A stretch of 64,000 nucleotides of DNA. It comes from Gordius sp. MW1 (Eukaryota; Nematomorpha; Gordioida; Gordea; Gordiidae). Within the stretch, counting starts at the first letter, position 1. Each line of letters opens with the position of its first letter. Shown here in pieces: positions 4,561-59,960 of this stretch. Under the pieces are notes generated by a model, which had not been told where the DNA came from, did no database searches, and worked only from the letters and a program-made list of their open reading frames with translations. The position numbers and the translations under genes are program-made. The stretch is from assembly GCA_964036665.1 (NCBI GenBank), contig OZ038532.1, positions 1,612,001 to 1,676,000 of the forward strand. The letters run 5' to 3'.

Positions 4561-4579
4561 TAAAATTGGATCACTGCTT

Positions 4580-26711: not shown

Positions 26712-26721
26712 TTCTGCCCCC

Positions 26722-28030: not shown

Positions 28031-28040
28031 TTGAACCCTA

Positions 28041-28801
28041 TTAAACTTTACAAGGGTATGTTAATCTGTTGAAAAACATTCCATTTGGACTATTTTTAAC
28101 ACAGTTAATGTAGCTTGAGAGTTCTGTGGTTGACAAGGATCCATATTCCAAATGATTTTTACATTTAATGTTTGAATAAAACCGTAAACAATATGCTATA
28201 GTTCGTGTCAGTTTCCGAAAATTAGAATATTTTGTTAACAAAGGATTAGTCTTACAAATAGTAGAGCAGTGCACTGTTTTGTGTTCGGGTTTATTGGACA
28301 TATCACTCAAAGACAAATGCTCAATAATAGGACAGTCGGTGGATAACCAAATGGGTCCTGTCCACCATTTTATATCATTAATCAACTCACTTGGTGAACA
28401 GCCTCTTGATAAAGAGTCGGCTGGATTGTCACTTGTTTGTACATGATGCCAATTGTCAACTTTAGAGTTTTGTTGAATTTTGCTACTCGATTAGCCACAA
28501 AGGTATTCCAGTTGCTAGGTGAACCCTTGGTCCATGCTAACACTATTGTCGAATCAGTCCAACAATATGTTGTGGATTTTGGAACTTGAAATGCTAGATG
28601 GACAATTTTTAATAATTTTGTTAGCAGAAGTGCCCCGCACAATTCTAGTCTTGGAATTGAAATGCTTTTGATAGGAGCAACTCGCGATTTGGAGCAAAGA
28701 AGTCTACTGGACCAGTTATCATTGCTGGAAGATCGAATGTATATACATGCCCCATAAGCGATTTCGCTTGCGTCACAGAAACCATGAATTTCTATCTTCA
28801 A
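28041..28801 (-). pseudogene. BEL/Pao RNase H and connection region
   Basis: The RNase H domain begins EIHGFCDASEIAYGACIY, continues with ISIPRLELCGALLLTKL, and has the catalytic-type Asp in YCWTDSTIVLAW. The 28385-28041 frame (WWTGPIWLSTD) is the tether that precedes integrase. One frameshift lies near 28450. Confidence 0.88.
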
Positions 28802-28930
28802 GGGATTCTCATGGCCTATAACATGCCGGAGAATGTCAAGTGAGCTTAAAAGTACAAACTGATTTTTAAATGATGTCCATTTATTGCTAAGATCACTAGG
28901 AAGTGTTTCATCCCAAGATTGCTGAAGCTT

Positions 28931-30207
28931 CTAAAGTTGCTGCATACATACCTTAGCTCTTGTCAATACAGGCCCTAGTAATCCAAGTGGATCAAACATT
29001 TGAGAAATATGTGATAGAACATTTCGTTTTAATATAGTATCCCTTGTAGTTTCATTTTTAAAGTTGAATCGAATGTTGTCATTTTGTGGATTATAATGGA
29101 TACCTAAAGTCTTCATGTTACTATGCTTGTCTAACGGTATGATTCGTCACTAGAAATTGATGGTAGTTGAGTGAATAATGAGATGGAATTTGTGGCCCAT
29201 TTTCTTAGATTTAATCCAGCTTTTTTTAGCATGGTCTGTATTTGTACTACAATAATTTTAGCTTCTGAAATGTTGTGTGCCCCTGTTAATAAATCGTCAA
29301 CATAAAAATCTCGTTGTGCTATGCGTGCTCCAACTGGGAACTCTTTGCATTCATCTTCAGCCACTTGTTGAAGAACTTTGGTAGCTAAGTAAGGTGCTGA
29401 TGAGGTTCCATAAGTAACTGTAAGTAAGTCAAAAGATTGAACAGGATGTGATATTTCATCTCGCCACATATTCTCTGCAATTGAGTATGTGCTGGATTAA
29501 TCAATATGTGTCTGTACATTTTTTCGATGTCTGCTGTGATTGCAATATTGTGACTACGAAACCTTAATATTATTGATATTAAGTCCTGCTGAATCTTAGG
29601 ACCAACCATCAGAGTGTCATTTAATGATAGTCCAGAAGTTGATTTAGCGGATCCATCAAAGACTACCCGCAATTTTGTCGTGAGGCTGTCCATCTTGAAT
29701 ATGGCGTGATGCGGCAGATAAAAGACAGGCAAATCTTGTGATTTTGTTTCAGTAGTGGAGGCTAGGTGGCCCAAACGTTGATATTCATGGATAAAACTTG
29801 TGTAATCACGTCTTAGTTCAGGGTTCCGCAACATCTTATTTTCAAGAGATTGAAATTGGATGAAAGCTTGTTTGTAAGAATTTCTCAATTTTTTAACTTG
29901 ATCCTTTAGTGGTAGGTCGACAATATATCTGCCAAATAAATTTCGTCTGAGTAGCCTTGAATATCTCTTCACATTGATGCTCTTCATTGGAGTACTGAAC
30001 TGGTTGGGTTATCTCTTCAATTCCCCAAAAATTAGTTAGTTGCTTATTTAATAGTTGAGTAGACAAATTGCATGTTTGTGTAACTTTAGAATTCCACGGG
30101 TTAGAAAAAAAATATGGACCAGAAATTATCCAACCGAATTGTGTGTTTTTAAACACTAATCCATTTTGAAGATTTAATTGTTCTATGCATATGACATCCC
30201 AAAACAA
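28931..30207 (-). pseudogene. BEL/Pao reverse transcriptase
   Basis: From right to left: NTQFGWIISGPYF (30207 frame), then YLPHHAIFKMDSLTTKLRVV with FDGSAKSTSGLSLND, then ITADIEKMYRHILINP (palm motif A), FDLLTVTYGTSSAPYLATK, and FYVDDLLTGA (the YVDD catalytic motif C). The KTLGIHYNPQNDNI thumb block follows. Frames change at about 29900, 29480 and 29120. The active-site residues are preserved, but the frame breaks mean the copy is inactive. Confidence 0.92.
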
Positions 30208-30443
30208 TTCAACACCAATCAGAATATCTATTTCACTAGAGATGTTGAAGGAAGGGTCAGCAAGTTGTAAATTGTCTGGTACTAAAATATTTTTGGGATT
30301 GATAATGTTGGAAGGTTTTTTGTAATATGATTCATAACTAAGAATTTTAGTTGAGCATTGTATTTGCTATGCAAAGAATGAACCCTTGCATCAACGCAAG
30401 TTTTAATAGATGATTGACTGTTATTGATGCCTCCTATTGCAAT

Positions 30444-31000
30444 TTAAATTTGTTGTACATTTAATTGCAACCTGTTAGCAAACTCAGTTGTGATGAAATT
30501 TGATTGGGATCCTGAATCTAAGAGAACACGACATATGTGGGTATTTCCTTTCACATCATTTATACCAATTAAAGCTGTAGGAAGTAATACCTGTATGGAA
30601 TCTTTATGATGATGAATGTTTAGAGCTGAATTTGTCGATGAAATTTTTTGTAAATCATATTGGTGCAAGAGTGTATTGTGTCTTTTGTAACATATCCTAC
30701 ATGATCCTGCCGTGCAATGTGAGATGCTATGATTTTGGTTTAAACAATTTGGACAAAGGAGTGCTGCTTGACAAGTTCTCTTTTTTCCTCACAAGTTGAG
30801 TTTAAGAATTTTTTACATCTAAAAATAAAATGGGATTGATTGCATATGAAGCAGCTAGGAGTGGAAATAGCTAGGTTGTTAGATGATTTGAAATGATTAC
30901 CTTTGGTCAGAACATCTGTATTTTCTAGTTTATAAGTCTTTCCAAGATGTGACACTGGTGAGTAAGTAAATCTGTTAAATTTAAGAGAGAGGGATATCAT
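30444..31000 (-). pseudogene. BEL/Pao zinc knuckles and aspartic protease
   Basis: Zinc-binding blocks read CFICNQSHFIFRCKKF and, after a shift, CPNCLNQNHSISHC and CRICYKRHNTLLH. The protease follows with TALIGINDVKGN and CRVLLDSGSQSNFIT, where DSGSQ is the retropepsin active-site motif of BEL elements. The order and strand match the rest of the element. Confidence 0.88.
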
Positions 31001-31701
31001 CCCTTTTGATTGTAGATTCCCAAGCCTTGTTGGTGATCAAATCTAATTTATTTGTAACTATATATATTAGTAGCTGATCCCAATGTTCCACTGAACAATT
31101 TAATGATTTTAGTGCTCTGGTGTGTTTCAATACCCCATCCATTAATTTTCGGATGTGTAGAAATGACTCCTTTCTAACCATGTTTAAATTAAATATACCT
31201 CTAATATGTTTATTAATTATTAGTCTCTTGTTATTGAAACGATCATTTAACAAGTCCCATGCAATTTTATAATTATCTGTAGATATGTCTAAGGATTGAA
31301 TTATACTTGCCGCTTGGCCCTTTAATGAAAGTTTTAAGTAATTCAATTTTTCTACATTTGAGATATCACAATTATTGTGAATAAGTGTTGTAAACAAATT
31401 GGAGAAACTTAACCACTCCTCATAATTCCCGTCAAAGTGAGGCAATTCTATTCGTGGAAGTTGTAGTTTCCCAGATGTTGATGATGGTTGAGAGAGTGTT
31501 GGTGTGTGAGATTGGTTAATGAGACTCTGTGCCTTTGATATTGCCTTATAGTAATTATCTACAATCTCTTTTTGCTCATGAGTTTTCATCAATTATATCA
31601 ACTTGTTCTTAAAATTCCACATATTTTAAATATAACTTTTTAGTATCTTCAAGTTTTAATTTTATGTTGATTATATCATCAGATGATTCTACATAGTCCA
31701 T
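30981..31701 (-). pseudogene. BEL/Pao Gag (DUF1759-like)
   Basis: The frame carries LPRIELPHFDGNYEEWLSF, NVEKLNYLKLSLKGQAA, IIQSLDISTDNYKIAWDLL and LKHTRALKSLNCSVEHWD, the signature of BEL Gag. An earlier frame near 31701 begins MDYVESSDDIINIKLKLE and reads into it through a shift. The 5' leader between here and the LTR is about 80 bp. Confidence 0.88.
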
Positions 31702-37369: not shown

Positions 37370-38570
37370 GGTTAGAATCTCGGTTTTTTTTAAACTCTTA
37401 TGATTGTTCTTGTTACTGCCATTGATAATAAGACTTTTTGGCCGTCTGCTGGCTGCTGACCAATGAAAAAAATGACCATTGGCCAAAATGTGAATCCAAG
37501 TTTATTTTTTCTTTTTTTGATTATTATGATTGTTCCTGTTACTACCATTGCTAATACGACTTTTCGGCCGTCCACTGGCTGCTGACCAAAAAAAAAATGA
37601 CCATTGGCCAAAATGTGAATCCAAGTTTATTTTTTTGTTTTTTTTTGACTATTATGATTGTTCCTGTTACTACCATTGCTATTATGACTTTTTGGCCGTC
37701 TGCTGGCTGCTGACCAAAGAAAAAAATGACCATTGGCCAAAATGTGAATCCAAGTTTATTTTTTCGTTTTTTTTTGATTATTATGATTGTTCCTGTTACT
37801 ACCATTGCTATTATGACTTTTTGGCCGTCCGCTGGCTGCTGACCGATGGAAAAAATGACCATTGGCCAAAATGTGATTCCAAGTTATTTTTCGTTTTAGT
37901 TTTGACTATTACGATTGTTCTTGTTACTATCATTGATAATAAGACTTTTTGGCCGTCCGCTGGCTGCTGACCAATGAAAAAAATGACCATTGGCCAAAAT
38001 GTGAATCCGAGTTTATTTTTTCTTTGACTATTATGATTATTCCTGTTACTACCATTGCTATTATGACTTTTTGGCCGTCCGCTGGCTCCTGACCGATGGA
38101 AAAAATGACCATTGGCCAAAATGTGAATCGAAATTATTTTTTTCGTTTTTTTTTGACTATTATGATTGTTCCTGTTCCTACCATTGCTATTATGACTTTT
38201 TGGACGTCCGCTGGCTGCTGACCAATGGAACAAAATGACCATAGGCCAAAATGTGATTCGAAATTTTTTTTTTCTTTTTTTTGACTATTATGAATTTATA
38301 TCTACTTTTACCGTGTCCTAGCTGCTGACCAATGGAATAAAATGACCATTGGCCAAAATGTGATTCGAAAATTTGTTTTTCGTTTTTTTTTACTCTTATG
38401 AATTTATATCCATTTTTACCGTGTGCTGGCTGCTGACCGATGGAAAAAAATAACTATTGGCCAAAGTGAGCATCAAAATTTTTTTTCCGTTTTTTTGGCT
38501 ATCATTGACTTATAGAGTATCTGTTGGTACTGACCAATAGAGAAAAAATGACCATTCGCCAAATTTTTGA
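37370..38570 (+). repeat. Satellite array A: 128-bp monomers grading into 108-bp monomers
   Basis: The word GGCTGCTGACC recurs at 37451, 37577, 37705, 37834, 37962, 38084, 38213, 38320 and 38428. Spacings are 126, 128, 129, 128, 122, 129, 107 and 108. Long monomers carry TGATTGTTCCTGTTACTACC and CTTTTTGGCCGTC. Short ones carry GAATTTATATCCA and TTTTACCGTGT in their place. Every unit keeps the hairpin ACCAATGG-A/T rich loop-CCATTGGCC. Several long open frames cross the array only because monomers lack stops in phase. They are not genes. Confidence 0.95.
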
Positions 38571-39310: not shown

Positions 39311-39984
39311 TTTTTTAATTTTTTTAAATTAAATTAATATTTTGTTCTTGTTAATACCATTGATAATATGAATTTTTGACCATCCGCTGGCTACTGACCA
39401 ATGAAAAAAATGACCATTGGCCAAATAAAGCGTAATTTTTAATTGCTATATGCAATTTATGGTATTTTTTCGTCTTTGAATAGGTTAACATTGATAATTA
39501 CCCTATGCCCTTTCCTACAAGGGCCTACGCCTCTACTGATATGGGTCCCTGTGCCCCTTACCAAAGCCTATGCCTTTACTGATATGGGTCCCTGTGCCCC
39601 TTACCAAACCCTATGCCTATACTAATGTGGGTTCGAATCCCGGAGAGGGCAAAATTTTTATTTATTTTTTAAATTAAATTAATATATTGTTCTTGTTAAT
39701 ACCATTGATAATGTGACCTTTTGGCCGTCCGCTGGCTACTGACCAATGAAAAAAATGACCATTGGCCAAATTATAAATCGAAATTTTTTTTTCGTTTTTG
39801 AATGTTAACATTGATAATTATTACCCTATGCCCTCCCCTACAAGGGTCTATGTTTCATTATCTATATATTGTCACGCTCTTCGGTGTCTTGCACCGAATG
39901 TCTTGTCACGCATCGAATGTCTTCTCACGCTGTTTACTTTTAATTTTAATTAATTTAACTAGTTTGTGGGTTCGAATCCCGGAG
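39311..39984 (+). repeat. Satellite array B, long composite units (about 343 bp)
   Basis: GGCTACTGACCAATG recurs at 39388 and 39731. The intervening segment holds three copies of a roughly 43-bp unit (TGATATGGGTCCCTGTGCCCC) and ends with the B-box-like GTGGGTTCGAATCCCGGAG at 39606, repeated near 39965. Confidence 0.8.
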
Positions 39985-40890
39985 TTTTTTTTTGACTCTT
40001 ATGATTGTTCTTGTTACTACCATTGATAATAAAACTTTTTGGCCGTCCGCTGGCTGCTGACCAATGGAAAAAAATGACCATTGGCCAAAATGTGTATCGA
40101 AATTATTTTTTTCGTTTTTTTTACTATTATGATTGTTCCTGTTACTACCATTGCTATTGTGACTTTTTGGCCGTCCGTTGGCTGCTGACCAATGGAAAAA
40201 AATGACCATTGGCCAAAATGTGATTTGCAAATTTTTTTTTCGTTTTTTTTTGACTATTATGGAATTATATCCACTTTTACCGTGTCCTGGCTGCTGACCA
40301 GTGGAAAAAAATGACCATTGGCCAAAATGTGATTCGAAAATTTTTTTTTAGTTTTTTTTGACTATTATGAATTTATATCCACTTTTACCGTGTCCTGGCT
40401 GCTGACCAATGGAAAAAAATGACCATTGGCCAAAATGTGATTCGAAAATTTTTTTTTCGTTTTTTTTGACTCTTATGAATTTATATCCACTTTTACCGTG
40501 TTCTGGCTGCTGACCAATGGAAAAAAATGACCATTGGCCAAATTGTGAATCGAAATTTATTTTCCGTTTTTTTTGACTCTTATGATTGTTCCTGTTAATA
40601 CCATTGATAATATGACTTTTTGGCCGTCTGCTGGCTGCTGACCAATGGAAAAAAATGACCATTGGCCAAATTGTGAATTGATATTTATTTTCCGTTTTTT
40701 TTGACTCTTATGATTGTTCCTGTTAATACCATTGATAATATGACTTTTTGGCCGTCTGCTGGCTGCTGACCAATGGAAAAAAATGAGCATTGGCCAAAGT
40801 GAGCATCAAAAATTTTTTTTCCGTTTTTTTGGCTATCATTGCCTTATAGAGTATCTGTTGGTACTGACCAATGAAAAAAAATGACCATTG
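39985..40890 (+). repeat. Satellite array B, short units (128 and 108 bp)
   Basis: GGCTGCTGACC recurs at 40052, 40180, 40289, 40397, 40505, 40633 and 40761 (spacings 128, 109, 108, 108, 128, 128). Two monomer types are intermixed in blocks, as in array A, and the same hairpin is conserved in every unit. Confidence 0.95.
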
Positions 40891-42711: not shown

Positions 42712-44484
42712 ATTCGTCTTAAGATCCTCTTTATTTTAATTCAGTAATTCAAAATGTATCCTCATTATAATAAATACTATTTATTCACCATTAAAACGTG
42801 CATTTCTACGTTGGTATGGTATAACAACTTTAAAATATGGTCAAATAAAAGCTGATTCTTTATCTAGGCCCCAGCCAGGCCGACACTTTCTATTCAGCTC
42901 TTTTTTAGGGCCTAGCTCATGCGTAAAATAATCTTACATGTGCTTTATAAAAACATATTTGCTAAAAAGCCTTTACATTTGTTAAATTATGTTTTGTATT
43001 CATTTTTGCTATAAAAACGATTATAGGCCTAGTCAGAGGGATACATTATAAGGCAGCTCAGGACCCCCCCCCCTTGACTTTTCTATGTTTATTAGAATAT
43101 GATATCACTCAACAAATAGACATTTTGTCGCTATTCAAGTTACTTTTATTTTTTCAACCACCTTGTATTTAGATATATTTAAATTATCAAAAACTTTTAA
43201 TTCACTTGTATGGGTTTATTAATGTTTTATTTGGTCCTTGATAATGGGCTAATGTGGTGCAAAAGATTGAAACACTTTCCTTCTCATTCCTTATCAATAT
43301 GATAATACCATTAATAAACTCAATTTTCTTATAACTAAGTCATGGGTTTTAGCATAATTGTGTTTATTTAAAAATTAATATTTGCTCCGAATAGCCTTAA
43401 CGCGATTAGACACTACTAAACTGACGTTCATGATAATGTAAATTAATTCGAATCCTATAATTACCAAATAATTAGAAATTGCTTAAACTGCAATGCCCAT
43501 GTTTGCTCAATAATTAGGCTCTACAAATATTTGTTTAAACAAAAAAGGAGTAAAAATTATAGTTTCGAATAATAAAAAATAGAGAAGCGATCAATTCCAA
43601 AAATTTTAAAGCCAAGACTACGTCGAAAAATCTCGAGCCGGGTCGGGTCTTGGACGACCCATTTAAAAATATATATAAAATTTGTATTTTCAGCTTACTT
43701 TGTTCATACTTTTGTAAAACGTTAGTCCTCTATAAGGTTTTTAAACTAAATGTCCTTGTCGAATTTACAATATATCGTTCTGGCTAATTGGAATGTTATT
43801 ATAAAAGCAGTTAGTATTGATGCATAACCTATCGTGTAACAAAATGCATTTATTTTTAAAAGAAACTAAATATTTAATATAAGAGTTTGAGTAAGCAATT
43901 ATTTTAAGTACATAATTCTGGTAATGTATTAATCACCATTTATAAATTTATTTTTCATTGGAATCTATGGTCCCCCTTGCCTACGCAATTATGAGGTTCT
44001 AAAAAAAAACCAAAATATACATTATCTTATCATGGACCTAAGTGCTTAAAAAATAATTTACTCAAATATTTTTATGTTTTAAAATTAAATGTCAAATATG
44101 ATAAAAAAATGACCATAATATATCAACAGCTTTATAATTTACAAAAATATATAAAACAATTTCTAGAGTTTATCGGCATTTTAATTTATAATATCTAAAA
44201 TTATATTTTTAATTAAGGTTGCATACATAATTATAAATTATAAAATTGGGTTATTTTGACCATTTAAACAGGTTTCAACAGGCATTTCCAAAATTAAAAA
44301 TAGACTATCTTAGATTTAATCTTTGTTAGCCTGTCTAAATATTCAGGATAGAACTGGTATTGTAAATATATCCTATACGCATGGCCTGATTCAGTTATAT
44401 TTGTTATCAAATAAAGCAATACATTTAATAGCCATTTTTTTAAGAAATATTTATTTTTTCGATTTTCCATAATTGGTTAAAATA
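42712..44484. other. Intergenic stretch upstream of the 14-exon gene
   Basis: It contains a C-run near 43065, the near-palindrome GGGTCTTGGACGACCC near 43637, and long AT-rich DNA. The last few hundred bases should hold the promoter of the downstream gene, but no motif can be fixed. Confidence 0.4.
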
Positions 44485-47400
44485 ATGTTTTTAATTTTAC
44501 TGTTAATAAATTGCCTTTCGTTGGCTTCCACCCAAGGTATCAATAATGTTCCCTCTAAATTATCATACATATTATGATTTTATATTTTTTTTGTAGAATT
44601 ATTTAAATTATAAAAAAAAATTTGTAACTATTTATTAGAGTGGAAAGATGATTTATGCAATGTCGTAAGTGGAGAAAAAGTGTACAGTACCGAAAATATC
44701 AAGGATTTACCCATCAATTTGTAAGTAACTATCACAATAATTTCCAAGTTTATATTTAATTTATAAAACCTAAAATTAAAAATTCAAACATATTCAACAT
44801 TTTTAATATAGCCCATCAAGCTTAAAATTAGCCAAAAGGGGACAAGATTTATTATGGGTATTGGATGGAGTTGAAATATATAATACTCAAAAGACTTGTA
44901 AACCGAATGTTAGAAAATGCTTAAATTTATACAACAATGCCAACCTAGAACACACACAAATTATATATGTCACCAATATTACAAATTCTTGGGCTTCGCC
45001 AATTCAAGCCGATAGTGACGTAAAATAACATGAATTAAATAAAAAAAATTCTATAATTTGTAAGTATTTATTAAACGATTTTTTGCTTTACATTAGCTCG
45101 TGATAAATTACAGTTCAAAGGCTCAAATTAATTTATTGCTTTGCACCTATACCCTCAGACTTGACGATTCCCTAAATTTCATTTGTGAAATTGTTGGATT
45201 CAATAATGCTAAAGTATGTTTAAAACATATAAACCTTTGGCAAAATGTTTGTATAATTTTAAAAATAATAAAACTTAACATAAAATTTATTAAATATTAA
45301 TAATTTTGCAAAATAATTATAGCGTCTTGTGATTGCCCAATTATTGAATTCCGTTCTAATTACACGTGTAAATAATCGAGATAATAGGGTAGTATCCGAA
45401 ATAAAGAATACATTTATTCTCAAATTCTCAGGAAATTATGGCGTTGGAGGAAGTAAACATCGACTCTTTTTCAACCTACATAAATGTCGAGGTATTTAGT
45501 TTGCCTTTTACCAAAAACTAATATTAACGTGATTAAAAAAGAGGCTGTAAAAGGGATTTTATCACTTTTAATAGGAAATTTATAATAGCTTTTTACTTTT
45601 ATTAAATTTGTAAATTGTATTACTAACATACAGATTCGGTTGATGTTTGCAAATCAATTAGTGATCAAATACCCCATGACATAGGAGAAATAATCCCAGG
45701 CACCGAGTAGATAGATGAACACTTAATCTAATTAGACTTTTTAAATTACTATATAAAATATTATACTACATTATAATTACAAATAAAAATTCCTTATTTT
45801 TAAAACAAGTTAAATATTAAATTTCTATGGGCAGGAATATAAAGACTATCATAATCCAGAAAAATGCCGAGGGCTTAGTTGAGCTTGTTGTAGATGGATC
45901 TTCTTTACATGGTCGCGATGATGCATCAACATTTTACGAAGCAATAAATGATGAATCTTTAGCTGTCATTAAAAGTTTAGTTAGACAGTATCCAAAAGCA
46001 ATACTACAAGAAATTGATAGCCATGTAAATTGTTTAGCCTTTTATATAAAATTAAATTTGATCCATCTTATGATATTTTTTACATTAAAAATCTGATGTA
46101 TATTTTATAAGTCTTCTACTTTTCTTCTTCTTTCTATGGCTGTTTGTCACCTAGGCTGGTGGTCAGTCATATATTTTATAGGTCTAAAAACAGTAAATTA
46201 TTGTTTGTGTTTTTGTATAAAGTGGTACGTAGATTGTCGTGGGGGCCTGTGTTGGGAAAAGGTATGTGGTATATCAATCAAGAATGGTGTCTTGCAAGAG
46301 GATTGTTATGATCCTAAAGATTATACCTTTCAATACTCCATTCAACCCAAGGTAAGTACAATAAATTTTTTTATTGATCAACACTTTTTTATATTGGTGT
46401 TTTAGTCAAATGTATTACTTATGGTATTATTCGTTTTAGCGAATACATTTTAATAAGAAACTAATTTTCATCCGGAGTTAAAGGATGTTTACTTAAAACT
46501 AGGGCCTTCGGCCCTGGTGGGAAGGGGGAGGGGGAAGGGAAGGAGAGGAAGGGAAGGGGGAACGAAACTCATCTATACTCCGTATAAACGTGGCATATTT
46601 GCTATGTATTTTATGGGCGAGAACTGTGGGAAGGGGCGAGAATGCCTATAGGGGGTATAAAATGCAAAATGTTTAGTTAATTATTTATACAAATAATTAA
46701 AAAGTTAAATTTTTTTTAAAACCTGCTATAAAACACTTATTAATACTTGATTTATTGAGGAATAGGTTTTCTTTCATTCATTATTATTTATCAACTTCTA
46801 AATTAATCAAAATGACGAAAGGAACGCAAATAGAGGGTGTGACCTTGGAAAAGCCAATAGTCATCCTTCCAAAACGTACAACTTTCAATTTAGAGTTTTT
46901 TTGATACTGTATAAATTAAAACAATTTGGTGTAGGCGACCCATAATTTGAATTATGACTATAGACTTTATTAAAATCATGCGCATATGTATAGTATAAAC
47001 AAGATATTAAAAAAACAAAAAAGATCCAATCAGACCTTGGCCATTGGTCATTTTTTCCATCTCTTTGGAAAGTGGTCATTTTTTCTAATGGTTAGCAGAC
47101 AGTCAAATAACTAGCTTATGCTTATAATCTAGAGAAAAAAATCGATTTTAATCTCACTTTGACCAGTGGTCATTTTTTCCATTGGTCAGTAACCAGCAGA
47201 ATGCCAAATACTGGCCAATAATTATAAGCTAGAGAAAAATCTGATCTTAATCTCACTTTGGCCAGTGGTCATTTTTTTATTGGTCAGTAGCCAGCAAACG
47301 GCCAAATAGTCTATATTTAAAATATAGAAAAAAAAATTTGCTACACTTTGGCCAATAGCCATTTTTTTTTATTGGTCAGTAGCCAGGACACGGTCAAAGA

Positions 47401-50400
47401 GGATATAAATACATAAGAGACGAAAAAAACGAGAAAAAAAATTTTGATTTACAATTTGGCCAATGGTCATTTTATTCATTGGTCAGCAGCCAGCGGACTG
47501 CCAAAAAGTCATATTATCAATGGTATTAACAAGAACAATTTATCAATTAAAAAAAAAAAAAAATTTGCTCTCTCCGGGATTCGAACCCTCATCAGTAGAG
47601 GCATAAACCTTTGTGGGGGGGGCACATGGACCCATATTAGTAGAGGCATAGGCCCTTGTAGGGGGGGGGCATAGGGAATTATTAATGTTAACATAATATA
47701 GCAATTCAAAAAAAGGGGAAAAAAATTTCGATTTATACTTTGTTTTTTCATTGGTCAGTTGCCAGGACACGGTCAAAAAGGATATAAATACATAAGAGAC
47801 GAAAAAAATTTCGAATCACAATTTGGTCACTGGTCATTTTTTTTATTGGTCAGTAGACAGGACACGGTCAAAAAGTCATATTATCAATGGGACAAACAAT
47901 AATTTAAAAAAAAAATAAAAAAATTGCCTTCTCAGGGATTCGAAACAGCAATTAAGAATTTGCCCTCGCCGGGATTCGAACCCACATCTAGAGGCATAGG
48001 CTTTTGTAGGGGGGGGGGGGGCACGGGGATTTATATCAGTAGAGGCATAGGGTATAATTATCAATATTAACCTAATATACCAATTCAAAAACAAAACAAA
48101 AAATTTCAAATCACAATTTGGCCAATGGTCATTTTTTTCATTTGTCAGTAGCCAGGACACGGTCAAAAAGTCATATTATCAATGGTATTAACAATAACAA
48201 TATATTAATTTAAAATTTTTTTGTTTTCTCCTGGTATCGAACCAGCAATTAAGAATGTTGGACGGACGGACAACAAAAAGAGAGCCCATAAATTGCATAG
48301 CAATTAATAAGTGAGTGATTCCCGATTTTTCTCCCCATAAAAAACAAGAATAACAGTTTCTCAACCCCTAATTGTCCAATAATGATTTATTTGGAAAAAA
48401 AATATTTAGTCCAAAAAGCCTTAACGCCTTCAAACTTTATTTTAGTGAGTAAATTTGTATAATTTTTATAAACAAGATCTTTAGTTATAAATTTTTTTTA
48501 ACTAGGTAGGTCGCGGAAGGCGTCGACGCGCCTGCTAAAGTAATTTTTATGGATAGCATAAAATGGTTACACCATAAGTGCTAGTCTTCTTTTCTTTTGA
48601 GGACGGTCCCTAAGCGAAATTACGCGCAATAAGATATATTTTATTATAGTTAAAATGCATATAGAGTCAAATAAAATAACTATGTATATGTGATTAAAAA
48701 GATTACATACCCGAGAGGTACCAGTGTAACCTGTAGGTGACACCACTTTGAACGCTAATTTTTAAACTATTGGATGAAATATTAATTTTTAAATTGAATA
48801 TGAAAAAGCACACTTAGGCGAATCAGCTGATATGTTTTATTCCCCTTCCTCTTCCTTCTTTCATTAATAATGAGGTCTCAAATATCGCTAATTTCGTAAT
48901 TTCGACTGCTTCTCATATATTTACTAAAAATGCAGACTCAACCATATGTAATCTTATTTTAATTTATATCATTAAAATCTTGACACTTTCACAATTATTT
49001 TGATATAAAATTTAATTGTTTTTGGTTAATTAAAATGGGAATAATGTTGGTCCAAAGTTTGGTGTAACCTGTAGGTTACACTGGGGAGAGGTCCATACCT
49101 ATAAGCTTATTTAAATGAGTAATGCTACTTTTTTATTTGCCTTAATTTGATTTTTTATAAGTAATTTCGTATAAAAATATCCTTATTACAAAGTTAATAT
49201 CGCTTTGAGGTAAAAATTATATGATTAATTTAACATTTGACCCCATCCACTTGGAAAATCCTGAAGATTACTTGAAACAATTTCTTTCAAATGATGTTAT
49301 TTTGTATGTGGTGAATATGAGTAAATTTAACTGTTAATGAATTTAAAGTCTAAACTCAATTCTTTTTTTAACGGGCTACTTGTTTCCTAAGTATATTAAA
49401 ATGTTTTGGGAGCTCCTACCTGACTGTTTTAACATAATGGTATCTAGTGGAATGCGTAGAATCGCTTCCAAGAAATAACTAAATATTTACATTTGGCCGA
49501 CAACAGCAAATTGGTAAGGGTTGACACTTTTTTCAAAGTTCGAGATTATATGAATCTTTTAAATGAAAAGTTCAAAAGCAACTTAAACATGCTAGCTCTT
49601 CTCACATATCCATGGATGAGTGTATGGTTCCTTATTTCGGGACCACAATGCAAAACAATTTATAAAAGGCAAGCCTTTTCGTTTCGGTTATAATATGTGG
49701 TGTGCAAAAAATGGCTACCTTGTCCGATTTCAACCTTACCAGATGGCTAAATTTACCTTAAATTGACAAAACGAAATAAGTTAAGGAGGAGCGGTCATTA
49801 GACTTAGTAAATCAACTACCACCAGAATTTGGTCCACACAATATTTATTTCGATAATTTTTTTACGAGCCACAATTTAATGATATGTCTTTCAAAGATGA
49901 ATATTAGGGGCACAGGAACGGTTCGGGTCGATTGTTTAAAATGCCTAAACATCGATGTAAAAGAACGAGGGTTTCAAAAAACACTTATTTGATGGCTGTC
50001 CGATGGAATGATAATAATATTGGCATAATGTTGTCAAATTGTCATAGGGTCAAGCCTATAACCTCTATTGGAAGAATCACTAAAGCGAAAAAATAGAAAA
50101 AAAATTGTAATTCAATATCCTCGTATGATCAAAAATTCTAATTGTTTTATGGGCGGTGTCGACCGCTTTGAGCAAAATATGGATGCAACTAAATTATCAT
50201 TTCACGACAGAAAAATGGTATTTTCCTATATTTGTAATTGGGCTGGATGCTGCATGCCAAAGGGGAAAACTACATTATGTAATTTCAAGAGAGATAATGC
50301 AAAATTATTTTAAAAAATACAAAAAACCGCGTAAACGGACTTTAAACCCTAGATTAACTAATTATAAGAATACTATAACATACAACCAAAGGCATCGTGT

Positions 50401-53400
50401 ACTCAGAGGCGTTGTGTCGTCTGTCATAAAGCTAGTAGAATTTTTTGTGCATATTATAAAGTTGGCCTTCTCCTCCCTGTCCCCCCCCCCTTTCTCCTCT
50501 TTAGTTTTGTTTGATCCAGTTGGAGGCGCTTGGTTCTAGATTCCCTCCTTTTCCAGTTTTAATTACCCTTCTTTCTCTTAGGGAGAGTTAAAATTAGATT
50601 TATAAATGGTCGTAAAAAATATACCCCATCCAAGGTCACGGTGATCTCGTGTTAGTATGATTCTTCTAAAGTCCCCCCCCCATTGTATTACTTACGTCTT
50701 CAATTCCCCCCGATTATGATTATTAATTACCACCATCATCATTATCAACGCGCGGTACACTACTATTGTTTACTTGCTTACATCTTCAATTTCCCCCCCC
50801 CCCCGATCATGATTGTATTATTGTTGTTTATATCTCCCCACTATTGAAAGAGGGATTATGTGTAAAAAAATAGATATCGAAATTTGTTTCTGGATTTATA
50901 ATTGGAGAAAATCTTTAATAGGTAATTGTTGATATTATATTGTGAATTATTATCATTGGAAAATAAAATTAGTATTTGTGTGAAGTGGATTATAATATAA
51001 AGATATTTAAGGAAGCCCTTCGTTATTCAACAATTGTTGGTCAATATTTCATAATAATTAACATATTTTATACTCATTTATGTTAGTTTAAATTTTTATG
51101 TATTTTATAAAAAAAATCATCATTATTGCATACATAATTGTAAAATTTAATAAATTTTCTTTATACGCGAGTATATTTGTGCTGTCCAGTGTAACCTGTA
51201 GGTGACACCTCTTTTTTTCTCAAAGTAAATAATTTTTTTAAAATTTTTTAATTGTTTAGCTTTATTTAGCATGTAAGAAAGCCCGGAAAAATTTCATAAA
51301 TTTTTTTTCGGCCGAACTGGGTCTGTTACCTGTCGGGTTAAGGTTACACAAAATTACATGGCTACCGTGTGTTTGTACAAATCAATTAAAGCACAAAATG
51401 GAACGGGTATATTGTCAAGAAAAGTGTTATTTGTTCTAAATTATACCATTGATAAAACTGTATAACGACTGTCCTTATAACAAAAAGATATTGCCGCAAT
51501 CCTAATTAACAGACAATACATATTTGATTTAGGTTGTTGTTTGAAAGGATTTAATTATCTAGAAACTAATATAAATAATTACCAAATACAGTAAATAAAA
51601 TAATTGTTTGTGGGCAAGATTTTTTCCCTTGGGGGTGCCGAAGGGGCCAGGATTCTGCTCTTAGTGGGGGGGGGGGGCTTGGCCTCTTTACCACACCCTC
51701 CCCCCTAGCTACACCACTGCTCACGGTAGAGTTGTTAAATTGCTTACTTGCTTCAACTCCAGCTACCATCTGCTCGCATTTTTATATGCTACTGTCCTGC
51801 CTAATGCACCTAACAGCGAGCACTTATTGTGCTAACGCGCATATTAAGCAACTGAGTGTGCGTGCTCGCGTCTGGTGTTGAAGCAAGTTAGCAATTTAAC
51901 AACTCTAGCTCACGGCATACTCTTTTAATGATGGTGATGTTATTTAGTCTGTTTCCTTTCTACAGCCTAGGTCTTATAAGGCGCGCTAGTTAACAACACT
52001 TAAGGGCTTGTCTTAATATCGGATTCCGATTCAAATAGCGCGAATTTAGCTTATACCCGATTCAATTTCATGGGTCAAACTCGGTTATAATTATCAATAT
52101 TTTGTTTTTTGATAGTTAAAACCGTTTTTTTGTTTATTTCAACTCTTGACATTAAATCTAAACTTTGCTGATACCTAAAAATTATAAGAACCTACAACAT
52201 TTAAGCTTAGGAATTTTGCATCTTACAAAATCGCTGTTATGTTATGCGTTTGAATGTAAATCTGCTGTGAATTCGAAGTTAAGACATAGCTAAGTTATAG
52301 CTCGTACGACGATTTTTGTGGCGCAGAAAAATCCGGTATTAAGACAAGCCCCAAGATTATACGCTTTTTTGTAATAGACTATTAAATAGTAATATTGAAT
52401 GAAACTTATTTCAATTTAATAAAACTCTATACAAAATTGTGGTGAAATTTATAGAGTGTGAGACTTTATCAAAAAGATGGATTTATCCACGTGCTCGAAC
52501 ATTATGACACAGAGGTAATAACAAAATCATTCCCCTTTGACTTCTTCATCCGAAATATGACTTATGGGCCAGGAATAAAATATATGCGCAGAAATGGTCT
52601 GCACCAATTGAAATTGGTAATCGATGATTGTGGAAATAGAGTCGAGGAAAAATGCGGTTAGTATTTTTATTTTTGTGTAACTTATCACAGTGCCGTAGGC
52701 AGGATTACTTAGGAGGGGAGGTGATTTCACAAAATTTTGATAAAAAATACAATTAAATAAAAATCTATTAAGATTATATACATTCAATATCTACGATGGG
52801 TCTAGAAAAATCATTAACAGTTAAATTATTAAAAATTTATGACCCAATTTCACCTGTGGTCTTTCTTCCAACAAAGAAATTTGCCAAAAGCTCCTTTTAA
52901 TTTTTCTATCTATGTCAACCAAATTTGAGATGTGCGCGGACCTTCTAGGCTTAATTGTTCCACCAGTACCAAATTTTAAAAGCCCTGTTTCGTCCCGGGT
53001 TCGTTCGCGCGAAGCTAAAAAAGCGAAGAGAATTTTATTTCGCCAAATTGGCAAAGCAATCACCGGCCCTAATTTTTTTTAACAAAAGCCCATGTAGTCC
53101 TTGCACGTTTCATCCCCAGGCCTTGATTTTAAAATTTAAACTTTGCCGATGCCAACTAAATTTTAATAAAGTTGGATATGTGATGATCCTCTAAAAGTAA
53201 ACATTACAAATCAATTCACTACATCATGAGGATTATTTTTTATTAGTTAAGTTTGATCAATCTATACTGTAGAAATAGCACGCTTAGTTTCTGAAGAGTA
53301 GAGATTTGAAATTATGCTTAAAAATGAACATTCATGAACGAATTATGTAAAACGCTTTTTAAAATTATCATTTACTTTGAGTTTTCTATTTTGATATTAT

Positions 53401-56400
53401 GCTCATCTCTAAGAATATAAACTCTTGCAAATACTAAATAAAGGAAGCAAATCTACGTTCATACAAGCATGTTAAACGCTAAAAAAGAATTTTAATTACC
53501 ATACTACCAAAATGTGGCCTCTATTAGAAACTTCCTCTTGTATTTTAGAATTTGACATAGTATTTTAGATAAATAACCAAGAATTAAATTTCTTTTCATA
53601 TTAAACAAGCATTAGAAAATATTTGTATATAAATAATCTTATACTTAATAGATTTTTATCTAAATTTAAAAAATTAAGAAAATTAATTATTTCAACGGCG
53701 CAATACCAAAAAGAGCCCTATTTTTATTATTGTGTATTTCCGTAGGGAAAATATTTGTATTTTTTGCTTGGGGGGAGTGCTAACCCGAAACCCCTCCTTT
53801 CCTACGCCACTGTTTATCATCTCTATTTAATTACCAAAAATTACTTAGTCTTTTAAATTCTAAAAATATACATACTAATCTCCTTAAGATTTATTTTGAT
53901 TTATTGTAAACAACTAAGCTTTATTGGCCAAACAGTCTACTTAAATTATGCAGCAATTTTATAATAAACAAAATTGAATTAATAAAAAAAATTAAAAATT
54001 CGAATTTATTAGATCACTTTTTTAACGTATAAATTGTCTTTATGATTAGACGATGGTTTGGACACTTGTTGCAAGTGGAAAGATCAGAATACGGTTTATC
54101 CAATGGGTCAATTCAGACCAGGACTGGGTACATCCAACATATATATTTAAAAAAAATTTTCCAAAAAACTTACTTTAATTTTATAAACGTAAATAATGCC
54201 CATAAATGTTTATAGTAATCATAGCATTTATAATTAAAATATTGCTTTAATATTTAGATGAATTTTGGGATGTTGATACATTGTGTGATAACGTAATTCA
54301 ATCTCTATCCTACAACGTGATAAATGCCAATCTACATGGCACCAAAATGATGTAATTTTTTAATTAATCAATTATTCACAAAATTAATCTATTTTAAAGT
54401 TGCTATGTTTTAAAAAACTTTGGCAATTATAATAAACACTTGTTTTAGAGACTCTAAGATAATGGTTTAAAATATGCCAAACAAATTTTTAAAGTTTTTA
54501 TAAATAAAAATGTGAGCACCCTTTAAAATTAATTTCCTGCACTAGGCCTTATAACCTCAATAGATGAGGTTTCAAAGGAAGGACACTTAAACTGTCTTGT
54601 TTTTAGATTTAAGAATCAGTCTTAATTTATGCTGTGATACTTTATTTAATTGTTTTAATTTATTTTGATTTGAATAGGAATCTTAAAATGAGAAAATGTA
54701 ATGGAACAGTCAAGGCAAAATGGGTAGCTAATATGGACCCATTAACACAAGGGAACGATATCATTTATTTCTTTTTTACTGAAGAAGAAATAGATAACTT
54801 GAAGGCAATGGCTTACGTTGAGAACTATCAAATTTCTTGCAGCAAAAACGTAAGTATTGTGAATAAATTAACTGTATTATAATTTTTGTTTGATTAGATT
54901 TTCTTGAAATTAAAAGACATAGTTGATACAACAATTACAATGATAAATGTGGAAACTGGGGAACTCAAAGAGTATGAAACACAAAGCCAAAAAGATGTAA
55001 GAATATTAAAAAGTTGGTTTTTTAATTTTTGGTATTACTGTATTGTCTTCCAATTTTAACAAACTAAAAATATTATACTCTTCGTATTACATTAATTACA
55101 CTGGTCAACAAAAAAAATAACCGGAAAACGGTCAACATATTCCGATAGAGTTTTTTGTGGTGAACACAAATATGTTTTTCGTTTTTTTCCTATACGTCAA
55201 GTTTTTTAGATATTTCGATTCAAAGTTGCAAAAATGACTGTTTTTGACCCTTTTCGATGCTCAATAGAGCGATATTGAATGGCTAAAAAAAATTTTGAAA
55301 CCTCTAAGTGGTAGAACCAACTTAGGGTAAAACATTAAAAAATGATTTTTTCCCTATTGTTTTTACTTTTTCCAATATATCGAATTTCAATTAGTCCCTA
55401 TGCGAAGCGGCATCCTTTGAGCCTCCTCCCTCCCTCTCTATCTAATTGGGTTTATAACACTATACTCTTGGTGCATGTGAGTGATTGATGGATGATGTGG
55501 GGGTGTGGGTGTAGAAGAGTAGTGGCGTAATACGAGCTATTCTTCTAGTAGAGATGGAGGATGACAGACGTAGTAGTAGGACTAGGAATAGTTCGTATTA
55601 ACCCACTACTCTTGCACCCACCACACTCATCAATCACTTACATGCACTAAGGGTATAGTGTTATATAAGCATATAAGCCAATAAAATAGAGAGGGAGGGA
55701 GGCTTAAAGGATGCCACTATTTCGCGTAGGGACTAATTGAATATTGGATATATTGGAAAAAGTAAAAACAATAGGGGAAAAAATCATTTTTTAATGTTTT
55801 ACACTAAGTTGGTTCTACCACTTAGAGGTTTAAATTTTTCTTTTTAACTATTAAATATCGCTCATTGAGCGTCGAAAAGGGTCAAAAACGGTCATTTTCG
55901 CAACTTTGAATCGAAATATCTAAAAAACTTGACGTATAGGAAAAAAACGAAAAACATATTTGTGTTCACCACAAAAAACTCTATCGGAATATGTTGACCG
56001 TTTCCCGGTTATTTACACAAGACCATTATTTGTTGACTAGTGTTATTTAGCATAAAATTAATTTTTGGCTGGCGTGAAAAATCATATCATAAACATATCG
56101 TAAATTAAACATAAATAGTAACTTTATATCCATGGGCGTAGCCAGGATTGGATTCAGAGGGGGGCCTTTATGATTTAGGGAGCGGAATAATAATTTTTCA
56201 AAATTTATCCAAAATTTTAGCCAAAATTGTTTAAGAATTTCTAAATTAAAAGATTGGCAGCCGTCCCTTTATGCCACCGACTGGCTACGCCTATAATTAG
56301 GTAGGTAGAATGTATAATAGTGTGAAATTATATTTTGATCTACTTAGATTCAAGTGGAACAAACAGTACAAGGCGTAGACATTATAGCGGTGGGCAAAGA

Positions 56401-56536
56401 TGATAAAGACTTTTATTATCCATATCCAAAGCATGCTTTAGTTAAGATTCAAACAAAAGTTGAAAGCATCCAAGAGAATAGGATGGAATCGGGAAGAGAA
56501 TTTATCGTATTGTCAAAATCAATTAAACATTGTTAA
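44485..56536 (+). CDS. Novel predicted secreted cysteine-rich protein, 14 exons, 617 residues
   Basis: Exons: 44485-44536, 44639-44720, 44812-45019, 45097-45213, 45323-45491, 45634-45706, 45835-46024, 46223-46351, 52455-52656, 54050-54127, 54258-54351, 54678-54849, 54898-54996, 56348-56536. All introns are GT-AG, phases agree at every junction, and no stop occurs in 1854 nt. Exon 1 is a signal peptide (MFLILLLINCLSLASTQ). The mature protein has scattered cysteines (DDLCNVV, TCKPNVRKCLNLY, DCRGGLCWEKVCG, LDTCCKWKD, RKCNG) and N-X-S/T sequons, with no transmembrane helix, so it is probably extracellular. I do not recognise the family. The stretch KWVANMDPLTQGNDIIYFFF loosely recalls a semaphorin blade, but the rest does not follow that domain. 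The weakest junction is the exon 6 donor (GA|GTAGAT). Without it, translation stops at 45708 after 234 residues, and a second gene could start at ATG 45827. Intron 8 (6.1 kb) and introns 9 and 13 hold transposons. Confidence 0.72.
46500..46672 (-). repeat. GGGCC-hairpin element, copy 3 (inverted)
   Basis: It lies in intron 8 of the secreted gene. It starts with AGGGCCTTCGGCCCT, followed by a G-rich tract, ACTCATCTATACTCCGTATA, ATTTTATGGGCGAGAA and TGCCTATAGGGGGTAT. It is the reverse complement of copies 1 and 2. Confidence 0.85.
47020..48310 (-). repeat. Satellite array D (inverted orientation) with B-box words
   Basis: Units read GGCCANTGGTCATTTTTT...ATTGGTCAGNAGCCAG, the complement of arrays A-C. 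The first four (47030-47340) are a distinct subfamily of about 107 bp with AGCTAGAGAAAAA words. Later ones are long composite units with CTCTCCGGGATTCGAACCCT (47573) and CTCGCCGGGATTCGAACCC (47964), the complements of Pol III B boxes. The block ends with the GGACGGACAACAAAAAG segment and the 18-mer word at 48285. All of it lies inside intron 8. Confidence 0.9.
48710..51337 (+). mobile_element. piggyBac element, 2628 bp, in intron 8
   Basis: The left end CCCGAGAGGTACCAG and the right end CTGTTACCTGTCGGG are inverted repeats (13 of 15 match). The right flank is the TTAA target (51338-51341); the left flank reads CATA, presumably mutated. A subterminal word GTGTAACCTGTAGGTGACAC occurs at 48724 and 51188, and a perfect palindromic form occurs at 49058. 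A decayed transposase lies within. Confidence 0.82.
49219..50440 (+). pseudogene. piggyBac transposase, heavily decayed
   Basis: Readable pieces in order: INLTFDPIHLENPEDYLKQF (49219), SISMDECMVPYFG-like residues near 49600, EFGPHNIYFDNFFTSHNLMI near 49830, RGTGTVRVD near 49910 and NSNCFMGGVDRFEQNMDATK near 50130. IYFDNFFTS and MGGVDRF are hallmark blocks of the piggyBac DDE domain. Many frameshifts and stops are present, and no C-terminal zinc finger was found. It is more decayed than the copy at 23710 and clearly a different lineage. Confidence 0.88.
51600..51718 (-). repeat. Fragment of a CAGTGGTGTAGC-type element end
   Basis: Read on the minus strand the segment starts CAGTGGTGTAGCTAGGGGGG. 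A second copy of a G-run and GCCAGGATTC lies at 51650 in the opposite sense, suggesting a small degraded inverted-repeat element. Confidence 0.5.
51727..51907. mobile_element. 181-bp MITE with 8-bp TSD
   Basis: The ends TAGAGTTGTTAAATTGCTTA and TAGCAATTTAACAACTCTA are inverted, and the arms continue through ACTTGCTTCAAC. The perfect duplication GCTCACGG flanks it (51719-51726 and 51908-51915). It lies in intron 8 of the secreted gene. Confidence 0.93.
52004..52352. mobile_element. Inverted-repeat element of about 349 bp
   Basis: GGGCTTGTCTTAATATCGGAT at the left and CCGGTATTAAGACAAGCCC at the right are complementary, with a weaker second pair (AGCGCGAA/GTGGCGCA) inside. TTAA precedes the left end but CCAAG follows the right end, so the TSD is not established. 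Confidence 0.75.
52688..53813. mobile_element. 1.1-kb non-autonomous DNA element in intron 9
   Basis: It begins CAGTGCCGTAGGCAGGATTA and ends CCTTTCCTACGCCACTGT, with GGAGGGG/CCCCTCC inside each end. TTATCA occurs directly on both sides (52682-52687 and 53814-53819). The interior shows no recognisable transposase. This is the longest member here of the CAGTGGCGTAGC family. Confidence 0.72.
55099..56043. mobile_element. 945-bp fold-back element in intron 13
   Basis: Two arms of about 450 bp are near-perfect inverted copies over their whole length. The left arm opens CACTGGTCAACAAAAAAAAT and the right arm closes TTATTTGTTGACTAGTGT. Only some 60-70 bp near 55540-55605 are unpaired. TA occurs on both sides, compatible with a Tc1/mariner-type TA target. 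No coding frame was found. The transcript of this intron could form a very long hairpin. Confidence 0.9.
56127..56297. mobile_element. Small GGCGTAGCC inverted-repeat element in intron 13
   Basis: CATGGGCGTAGCCAGGATTG at the left and GACTGGCTACGCCTAT at the right form the ends of a roughly 165-bp element with an AT-rich core. It lies just upstream of the last exon (56348). Confidence 0.75.
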
Positions 56537-58235: not shown

Positions 58236-59960
58236 TAGTTTGCAAGTTAACCAGTAAAGAAGGGGAAAGAATGATCTACAAAATCGCAAAGACCAGAGCA
58301 AGGAACTCGAAGGATGTGGTAAACGTGAAAACTATAAAGAGCAAGGAAGGCATCACTCTACTCTGGACCATCAAATAATAGATCGTTGGGAAGAATACTA
58401 TTAAGAATTATTAAACAGTGAAAATGGGTTTTCAGACCACTGCGAAAGCAAGACCTATGAATATGTTCAGAGTTAGAAGTGACAGAAGAAGAGGTTGACC
58501 AGGTGCTTAAAAAGATGACCATGGGTAGAGCGGTAGGACCTGATAATATACCTATGGAAGCTTTCAAAATGCTAGGACCCTTAGGTGTACATCTACTTGC
58601 AAAGCTGTTCAACAAAATACTTGCAAGTGGTATATGCCTGATGAGTGGTGGGAAAGCTATGTTATACTTATCTATAAATTAAAAGGAGATGTACAAGAAT
58701 GCAACAACTATCGAGGGATAAAGTTAACGAGTCACGTAATGAAGGTGTGGGAAAAGGTTATAGAAGCTAACTCCGAAAAACAATCTCAATAGATGAACGA
58801 CAATTTGGGTTCATGCCTGGAAAGGACTTCAGATGCAATACATGGTCTTAGGAGGCTTATGGAATTATATAAGGAAAAACAAAAGGATCTTCATATATGT
58901 TTCATTGATCTTGAGAGCTTTCGATAAAGTGTCAGGGCAGTTGATATGGGATAGCTGAGTTCTAATGGTGTACCCGACGCATATATAATGTTAATAAAGG
59001 ATGTGTATAGAAACGCAAAAACCAAAGTTTGGACATCCAGTGGTACATCAAAGGGATTCAGTTTAAATCTCGGTGTGCATCAAGGATCGGCCTTAAGTCC
59101 ATTGCTCTTCGTAGCAATAATGAATTCGATAACGAAGGACCTGAAAGGCGAATCACCTTGGGCAATGCTCTTTGCGGATGATATCGTCCTGTGCGCAGGC
59201 TCAAATGTAGAATTAGCAGAGCAGGTAAAAGTGTGGATGGAGCAAATTGAAAGCAAAGGGCTTAGGGTCAACCGAGATAAAACTGAATATGTATGCTTGG
59301 AGTCGGGAATTAATACAAAGAAACACACCTGCAAATCGATGACTGGTGTTTAAGCAGTAGGAAGGAATTCAAATATCTTGGTTCTAGGGTACAGTGTGAT
59401 GGAGGTGTGGAAAACGAAATTAAGCCAAGAATAAAAGCAGGCTGGCTAAAATTTTGGGTGTTGAGTGGTGTCCTATGTGACAAACACATTCCACTCAAAT
59501 TGAAAGGACGGTTTTATTACACCGTTATTGTACCCACGGTATTGTGTGGAGCGGAAACCTGGGCAATTAAGGCAAAAGTGGAACAATGCTTGGCTACAAT
59601 GGAGATGCGAATGTTAAGATGGATCTTGGGAATAAGCAAAAAGGACCATATAAGGAATCAAGACATAAGGGGTAAACTAAATGTGGTTCCGTCAGAGAAA
59701 GTTGGTGGTAAGAAGATTGAGATGGTATGGCCATTTGGAGAGACGGAAGGAGAGGCACTTGGCAAATTGTATCAAGCAAGTGCAAGTCGAAGGTAAAAAG
59801 AGAGGGAGGCCTAAACTGACATGGAAGCATAAAATAAATATGGACTTGAGAAGGTACGAGCTAAAGCGAAGCTGAAGTGCAGGAATACATGAAGAACGTA
59901 CTTGAAGGGTCTGACCATAAATGTGACAAACAGCTATAGGAAAAAAATAATAAAAAAATA
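58236..59960 (+). pseudogene. RTE-clade retrotransposon, reverse transcriptase half
   Basis: From a point after the endonuclease: IYKIAKTRARNSKDVVNVK, VTEEEVDQVLKKMTMGRAVG with PDNIPMEAFKMLG, GDVQECNNYRGIKL, GVHQGSALSPLLFVAIMN, and AMLFADDIVLCAGS (the FADD catalytic motif). Then come KAGWLKFWVLSGVLCD, PTVLCGAETWAIKAK and KRGRPKLTWKHKINMDL. A stop at 58678 and shifts near 58770, 58915 and 59350 break it. An A-rich tail (AAAAAAATAATAAAAAAATA) at about 59940-59960 marks the 3' end. Confidence 0.92.

Follow-up and report, generated by a model that had tools for sequence, protein, structure and literature searches.

The question raised by this stretch of Gordius sp. MW1 DNA, 64,000 nucleotides (nt) of contig OZ038532.1 (C6:1612001-1676000, hereafter the window), is what kind of protein is encoded by a gene whose coding sequence of 1.85 kb is spread across 12 kb, one 6.1-kb transposon-bearing intron included. 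The initial annotation had proposed 14 exons, joined by GT-AG introns of matching phase, for one secreted-looking, cysteine-rich protein of no assigned family. The explanation that we prefer as a whole, and hold with reasonable though far from full confidence, is a secreted protein with a signal peptide and three tandem copies of one module of about 190 residues. The initial annotation, which described an unassigned single protein, missed this internal repeat of a four-exon symmetrical module, and it overlooked a gene family within the same genome (211.8 Mb in 12 contigs), which we searched for relatives.

The 14 rebuilt exons (Table 1) join into a coding sequence of 1854 nt that gives 617 residues and a stop, with GT-AG boundaries at all 13 introns. 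The other two sense frames of the joined sequence contain 52 and 53 stops, and the probability that a random frame of 617 codons stays open at this base composition is about 2e-22, a figure that ignores the freedom of exon choice. A chain of chance open reading frames (ORFs) is disfavoured. The same structure is found in a tandem paralogue, gene B (in locus L032), which was found by searching the window's own genome and begins some 41 kb downstream of the window gene, on its strand. Gene B keeps 14 of the 14 exons of the window gene (gene A) with the same junction positions and frame, and exon lengths are equal in 12 of the 14, exons 4 and 8 differing by 6 nt. The two proteins are identical at 519 of 615 aligned residues (84%). 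The nonsynonymous (dN) and synonymous (dS) divergences are 0.075 and 0.242, which gives a dN/dS of 0.31 over the whole coding sequence, and the substitutions at codon positions 1, 2 and 3 number 48, 42 and 92 over 615 codons (binomial p for the third-position excess 1.2e-6). A pseudogene is disfavoured, since both copies are open and have this dN/dS. Exons 8-14 are 82-92% identical between A and B, while introns 7 and 9-13 are 60-75% identical (intron 8 was not aligned). The contrast weakens towards the start of the gene, in its first half, where introns 1-6 are 84, 95, 75, 95, 97 and 95% identical. Judged from genomic sequence, we take the 14-exon model as confirmed, both by the rebuilt join and by the paralogue, and the window gene as a real animal gene.

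The 5' part of the gene, exons 1-6 together with introns 2, 4, 5 and 6 (95-97%), is far closer between A and B than the remainder (window 44317-46070 against L032 1363-3085). The dS is 0.137 for residues 1-234 and 0.275-0.354 later, and similarity continues upstream to 43379 at 69%. The closer 5' half suggests gene conversion or a later exchange between the two copies.

Exon 1 ends in phase 1, and the exons that follow it are entered in phases 1,2,0,0 / 1,2,0,0 / 1,1,2,0,0; we therefore propose three four-exon modules and an additional intron in the third of them. The introns after residues 17, 209 and 407 are all in phase 1. The modules are divergent, each of about 190 residues with six to seven cysteines, and cover residues 18-208, 209-407 and 408-617. 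The cassette consists of exons a-b-c-d entered in phases 1-2-0-0 and is of the symmetrical class 1-1, with phase-1 introns bounding the modules on both sides; module 3, being terminal, has a phase-1 intron on the left only.

The relatedness of the three modules was examined by exon-anchored global alignment to profiles of module-1-type exons (9, 9, 9 and 10 sequences for a, b, c and d), with two nulls, namely 300 shuffles each and 300 peptides drawn from 95 other ORF segments of the window. For module 2, segments a, b, c and d gave z-scores of 3.57, 5.44, 0.91 and 5.21 against shuffles and 4.87, 5.28, 0.50 and 4.77 against the ORF null (combined 7.56 and 7.71). For module 3 the shuffle values were 2.16, 1.33, 1.43 and 2.70, with a combined z of 3.81 against shuffles and 4.11 against the ORF null. 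A run with smaller profiles gave combined z-scores of 7.58, 3.62 and 2.80 for module 2, module 3 and the C-terminal module of a further family member, gene X (described below). With these smaller profiles, 13 of 14 mismatched-exon controls (pairs within 16 residues in length) stayed at or below z 1.65.

Several results speak against a common origin of the three modules, and they lend weight to the alternative that the repeated family is represented by module 1 alone, exons 6-14 coding for one or more unrelated secreted domains that share its intron phases by chance. Comparison of modules 1-2, 1-3 and 2-3 with hhalign gave P values of 0.068, 0.068 and 0.17, with probabilities under 1%, and neither these pairs nor the d exons alone (P 0.025 and 0.032) gave a convincing link. 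In a local HMMER search with the module profile, modules 2 and 3 failed to outrank shuffles: they stood at ranks 57 and 79 (counting from 0), and the C-terminal module of X at 136, in a set of 903 sequences of which 900 were shuffles. In the exon-anchored alignments segment c of module 2 stands at the null, the scores of module 3 are modest and its X counterpart is near the null (combined z 2.17 against shuffles and 2.58 against the ORF null). One of the 14 mismatched controls reached z 3.84, and the profiles contain near-duplicate rows (A with B, X1 with X2). We nevertheless consider this alternative improbable, because the scores of segments a, b and d of module 2 were reached by only 1, 0 and 0 of 300 shuffles and by none of the 300 ORF-null peptides in each case, because the entry phases 1-2-0-0 recur, and because the b segment of module X0 lacks the two cysteines just as that of module 2 does. 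We take modules 1 and 2, which are clearly related, to be homologous; the relatedness of module 3 is moderate, and it is probably homologous to both. The cassette itself can be read from the sequence of module 1 and, less directly, of module 2, and is probable for module 3. An anatomy of three modules in a secreted protein, coded by four-exon cassettes, is the part of the explanation that we regard as highly likely.

Over five loci, 13 complete four-exon modules were found: three in A, three in B, five in X, and one each in Q and Y. Gene X (C6:6158328-6173600) contains the complete modules X0, X1, X2 and X3 and a C-terminal one of module-3 type, as well as an upstream partial module of which only exons c and d were sought, and both were seen. 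Gene Q (locus L033, about C6:6116.3-6120.7 kb) begins with a hydrophobic exon of its own and continues with two modules and a stop, and Y, on C5 near 4.995 Mb, is one complete module whose flanks are unexplored. The C-terminal, module-3 type was seen only in A, B and X when the genome was searched with the X copy as query at expect values (E) up to 1. Exon length modulo 3 fits the cassette rule in 12/12 a, 14/14 b, 14/14 c and 11/11 non-terminal d exons of the five loci, a tally that leaves aside four terminal d exons and, in A and B, the a exons of module 3, which are split. Two points reduce the force of this picture. The c exon of the first Q module (Q1) was not found, and outside A the tally is partly circular because exon ends were set by eye, with the expected phase helping to choose the site in at least two cases (the a exon of X0 and the b exon of Y). 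The family would have spread by tandem duplication and by duplication within genes.

In gene X the modules are separated by Thr/Ser-rich, mucin-like micro-exons, of which seven were used, 39-141 nt long and all multiples of 3; further Thr-rich candidates picked by eye in loci L052 and L034, and another one bounded without an AG, were excluded from the join. The a and b segments of X1 and X2 (C6:6161613-6163360 and 6166711-6169140; loci L053, L052 and L034) are nearly identical, which on this comparison is the mark of a recent duplication within the gene. On C2 there is a solitary d exon (L051 5022-5188); it is 72% identical to the C5 copy over 50 residues and is apparently frame-broken near its start, and no other module exons were found around it in the 9 kb examined.

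The junction between exons 6 and 7 (45706 to 45835), which the initial annotation had singled out, is indeed the weak spot of the model, as it could mark the border of two adjacent genes, the first of them exons 1-6 ending at a stop just past exon 6 and the second starting at an ATG before exon 7. In both A and B the donor of exon 6 is GTAGAT, read-through gives ...IIPGTE and then a stop, and exon 7 has an in-frame ATG 8 nt ahead of it, all of which counts against a single gene. The high identity of introns 2, 4, 5 and 6, which match between A and B as well as the exons do, also leaves room for two genes, and for the same reason conservation cannot mark this junction. The immediate stop carries little weight, since read-through after exons 2, 9 and 11 leads directly to a stop as well. 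Moreover, the scores assign exons 6 and 7 to segments a and b of a single module, joined in the a-to-b phase of the family, and the putative second gene would begin MGRNIKTIIIQK, with no signal peptide although its product would have 13 cysteines. Two genes therefore seem quite unlikely to us. The single gene of the initial annotation is the more probable reading, on the scores of the two exons and the same junction in B. Unspliced transcripts (window 45707-45834 and L032 2723-2850) could in principle give a short module-1 protein.

The window protein has a hydrophobic N-terminus, by hydropathy a probable signal peptide, and past residue 30 nothing comparable follows, no 19-residue stretch averaging above 1.03 on the Kyte-Doolittle scale. 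The mature mass is 68.7 kDa and there are four N-glycosylation sequons. The label of cysteine-rich in the initial annotation is fair, as 19 cysteines follow the signal peptide (6, 7 and 6 in modules 1, 2 and 3), each of them matched in paralogue B, which has three more. Its wider description of a secreted-looking protein without an assigned family, scattered by transposon-bearing introns, is likewise borne out. When nine module-1-type modules were aligned (without the partial one upstream in X, and with Q1 lacking its c segment), the invariant columns, counted from the first residue of module 1, were C7, P25, L34, W43, S96, F167, G179, H182 and C191. With six or seven cysteines each, the modules are probably disulfide-bonded folds, and residue patterns judged by eye suggest that the fold is perhaps mainly beta. 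AlphaFold modelled exon 3, from a three-row alignment of exons 3, 7 and 12, as short strands at low confidence (predicted local distance difference test score, pLDDT, 50.9); exon 5 alone was modelled as a helix, also at low confidence (pLDDT 61.1), which is at odds with a mainly beta module.

No match above the curated cut-off was obtained in Pfam-A for the whole protein or the scanned modules. The Pfam matches that lie below cut-off or are of unstated standing were REC104 (E 0.029), CBM_56 (0.042), ATP_synth_reg (0.048), Avidin (0.084), Lin-15B (0.1) and DUF5844 (0.19), each in a single sequence except CBM_56, which was found in the whole protein and in module 3. NCBIfam, with module 1 only as query, gave no match above threshold, and neither did the PDB sequences for the protein, its modules and the profiles, where the best hit was the collagen-binding adhesin 7lgr (E 0.33). 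In IMG/VR, searched with the module alignment, five stretches fitted the pattern and none was confirmed by tblastn. Given these libraries, the novelty of the module is provisional.

The initial annotation had also suggested a Sema or other beta-propeller fold. This receives no support at the sequence level, as the Sema family (PF01403) had no match in the window protein at E 10 and the single match reported from the genome is on another contig, C1. The repeat unit of about 190 residues is also unlike a propeller blade, which differs in size. A Sema-type or other propeller protein is therefore a very remote prospect; the likeness to the Sema domain of semaphorins and plexins is that of an extracellular, cysteine-bearing protein in a general sense only, while sequence match is absent and the repeat length differs. 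The genomic Sema match (C1:15289216-15289419, the sole one reported, with seven candidates scored) has a TAG inside the aligned stretch.

A closer comparison is offered by the mobile extracellular modules of class 1-1 in animal mosaic proteins, a general class associated with Patthy. The signal-peptide exon of the window gene ends in phase 1 and the modules are bounded by phase-1 introns. The same module is repeated within one protein and is present in several genes (A, B, X, Q and Y), duplicated both in tandem and between genes, and sequence features, namely the hydrophobic N-termini of the window protein and of gene Q, suggest secreted products. It differs from that class in fitting no curated domain searched, in its three internal introns of fixed phases 2-0-0, and in having been looked for and seen in one genome only. 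According to PMC8001218, animal exon shuffling uses domain types of class 1-1, of which those most used are mainly beta, and phase-1 introns are over-represented close to the sites where signal peptides are cleaved. The phases of the window gene agree with this.

With its signal peptide and three modules in tandem the product would be a secreted extracellular protein, and a cassette with phases 1-2-0-0 bounded by phase-1 introns would keep the frame upon duplication or movement. Sister gene X would string at least five modules together with Thr/Ser-rich micro-exons, which suggest O-glycosylated, mucin-like stalks, and the window gene would be a short form without stalks. Gene X resembles the mucins as a class in alternating cysteine-containing modules with Thr/Ser-rich stretches; unlike mucins, the window protein has by eye no Thr/Ser-rich tandem stretch or linker, and its modules contain no Pfam domain above cut-off. 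Because the linkers of X are mucin-like, a role at a surface or in mucus or matrix is our best guess. We read the family as one of extracellular modules, probably with an adhesive or structural role; the most likely specific function, put forward only tentatively, would be to bind or cross-link within an extracellular material such as mucus, the cuticle or surface coat, the egg coat or a gland secretion. Instead of contributing to structure or mucus, a secreted-looking, cysteine-rich and tandem-duplicated protein without relatives in the families searched could also be a lineage-specific gland product that acts on another organism, for example in saliva, in venom or in interaction with a host. 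The dN/dS of 0.31 over the whole coding sequence indicates constraint on average, and the mucin-like linkers of X suit a component of coat or mucus better, and we consider a gland product of this kind unlikely, if not negligibly so.

Several introns differ greatly in length between the two tandem genes. Introns 8, 9 and 13 measure 6103, 1393 and 1351 nt in the window copy versus 466, 238 and 253 nt in B, which is most simply accounted for by insertions gained by the window copy. Of three pieces of intron 8 that were scanned, two match the profile of a piggyBac-type transposase, at E 7.9e-4 and 9.4e-5 and in each case slightly short of the Pfam cut-off, and the fold-back element of intron 13 has 151-nt arms that are 97% complementary; the mobile DNA that the initial annotation placed in the introns is thus seen in introns 8 and 13. 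Features of the gene are collected in Table 1.

Table 1. Features of the window gene, in window coordinates; z, score of the segment against shuffles.
Feature	Position	Strand	Comparison
Exon 1, probable signal peptide (MFLILLLINCLSLASTQ), ends in phase 1	44485..44536	+	same exon in paralogue B
Exon 2, module 1 segment a	44639..44720	+	same exon in B; family exon join
Exon 3, module 1 segment b (LLWVLDGVEIY..C..C..DSD)	44812..45019	+	same exon in B; family exon join
Exon 4, module 1 segment c	45097..45213	+	exon present in B; family exon join
Exon 5, module 1 segment d, last cysteine within HKC	45323..45491	+	same exon in B; family exon join
Exon 6, module 2 segment a; donor GTAGAT, read-through hits a stop immediately	45634..45706	+	B; z 3.57
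Exon 7, module 2 segment b, with EIDSH at its end in place of the QADSD of module 1; in-frame ATG 8 nt upstream	45835..46024	+	B; z 5.44
Exon 8, module 2 segment c	46223..46351	+	exon in B; relatedness of exon alone at z 0.91
Exon 9, module 2 segment d (IDDC and 8-residue tail)	52455..52656	+	exon in B; z 5.21
Exon 10, probable module 3 segment a, first half (extra phase-1 intron)	54050..54127	+	exon in B
Exon 11, probable module 3 segment a, second half	54258..54351	+	exon in B; a segment z 2.16
Exon 12, probable module 3 segment b	54678..54849	+	exon in B; z 1.33; related exon in gene X
Exon 13, probable module 3 segment c	54898..54996	+	exon in B; z 1.43
Exon 14, probable module 3 segment d, ends IKHC then TAA	56348..56536	+	exon in B; z 2.70
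Candidate poly-A signal AATAAA	56640..56645	+	
Intron 8, 6103 nt, degraded piggyBac-like transposase pieces within 49620-49989	46352..52454	.	466 nt in B
Fold-back (long inverted-repeat) element in intron 13	55094..56047	.	intron 13 of B is 253 nt

Elsewhere in the window, 37383-38502 and 39984-40830 are occupied by large tandem arrays whose periods are about 108, 128-129 and 257 nt, and sequence that is related to them by eye recurs near 47050-47900, within intron 8, and at loci L034 and L051. A family scan of eight other frames of the window left four without a family. The others included a piggyBac-type transposase at 24685-25386 (+, E 8.3e-41), an integrase with an H2C2 zinc finger at 27144-28037 (-, E 4.8e-11), inside a minus-strand run of frames at 26665-31592, and a piece of reverse transcriptase at 58955-59353 (+, E 3e-15). 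An open frame of 461 codons at 4484-5869 (+) matches the rhodopsin-type G-protein-coupled receptors (7tm_1, E 8.9e-6, below the curated cut-off) and has no match among PDB sequences at E 0.001; together with the exon pattern, the receptor match points to an animal genome. Pfam profiles for insect odorant receptors, arthropod cuticle, nematode cuticle collagen and tunicate-type GH6 had no match in the genome, but these negatives say little, as the control genomes gave none either.

The window gene illustrates how automatic gene callers could miss genes that are scattered by transposon-bearing introns. As one more orphan extracellular family it is ordinary, and it is of some interest as a possibly young shuffling module. 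It is tempting to speculate that the four-exon, six-cysteine class 1-1 module is an undescribed mobile extracellular domain of one animal lineage, in which it originated and in which its shuffling continues through tandem gene duplication, through duplication within a gene as for X1 and X2, and through combination with mucin-like micro-exons; we consider this a serious possibility, if one that falls somewhat short of an even chance. If the module is truly absent from known families, it would provide a defined target for structure work and a young case of exon shuffling in which duplication continues and a single genome contains both near-identical and deeply diverged copies. Should the speculation hold, a new shuffling module would be seen here in action, one that is not among the few dozen types on which exon shuffling in animals draws.

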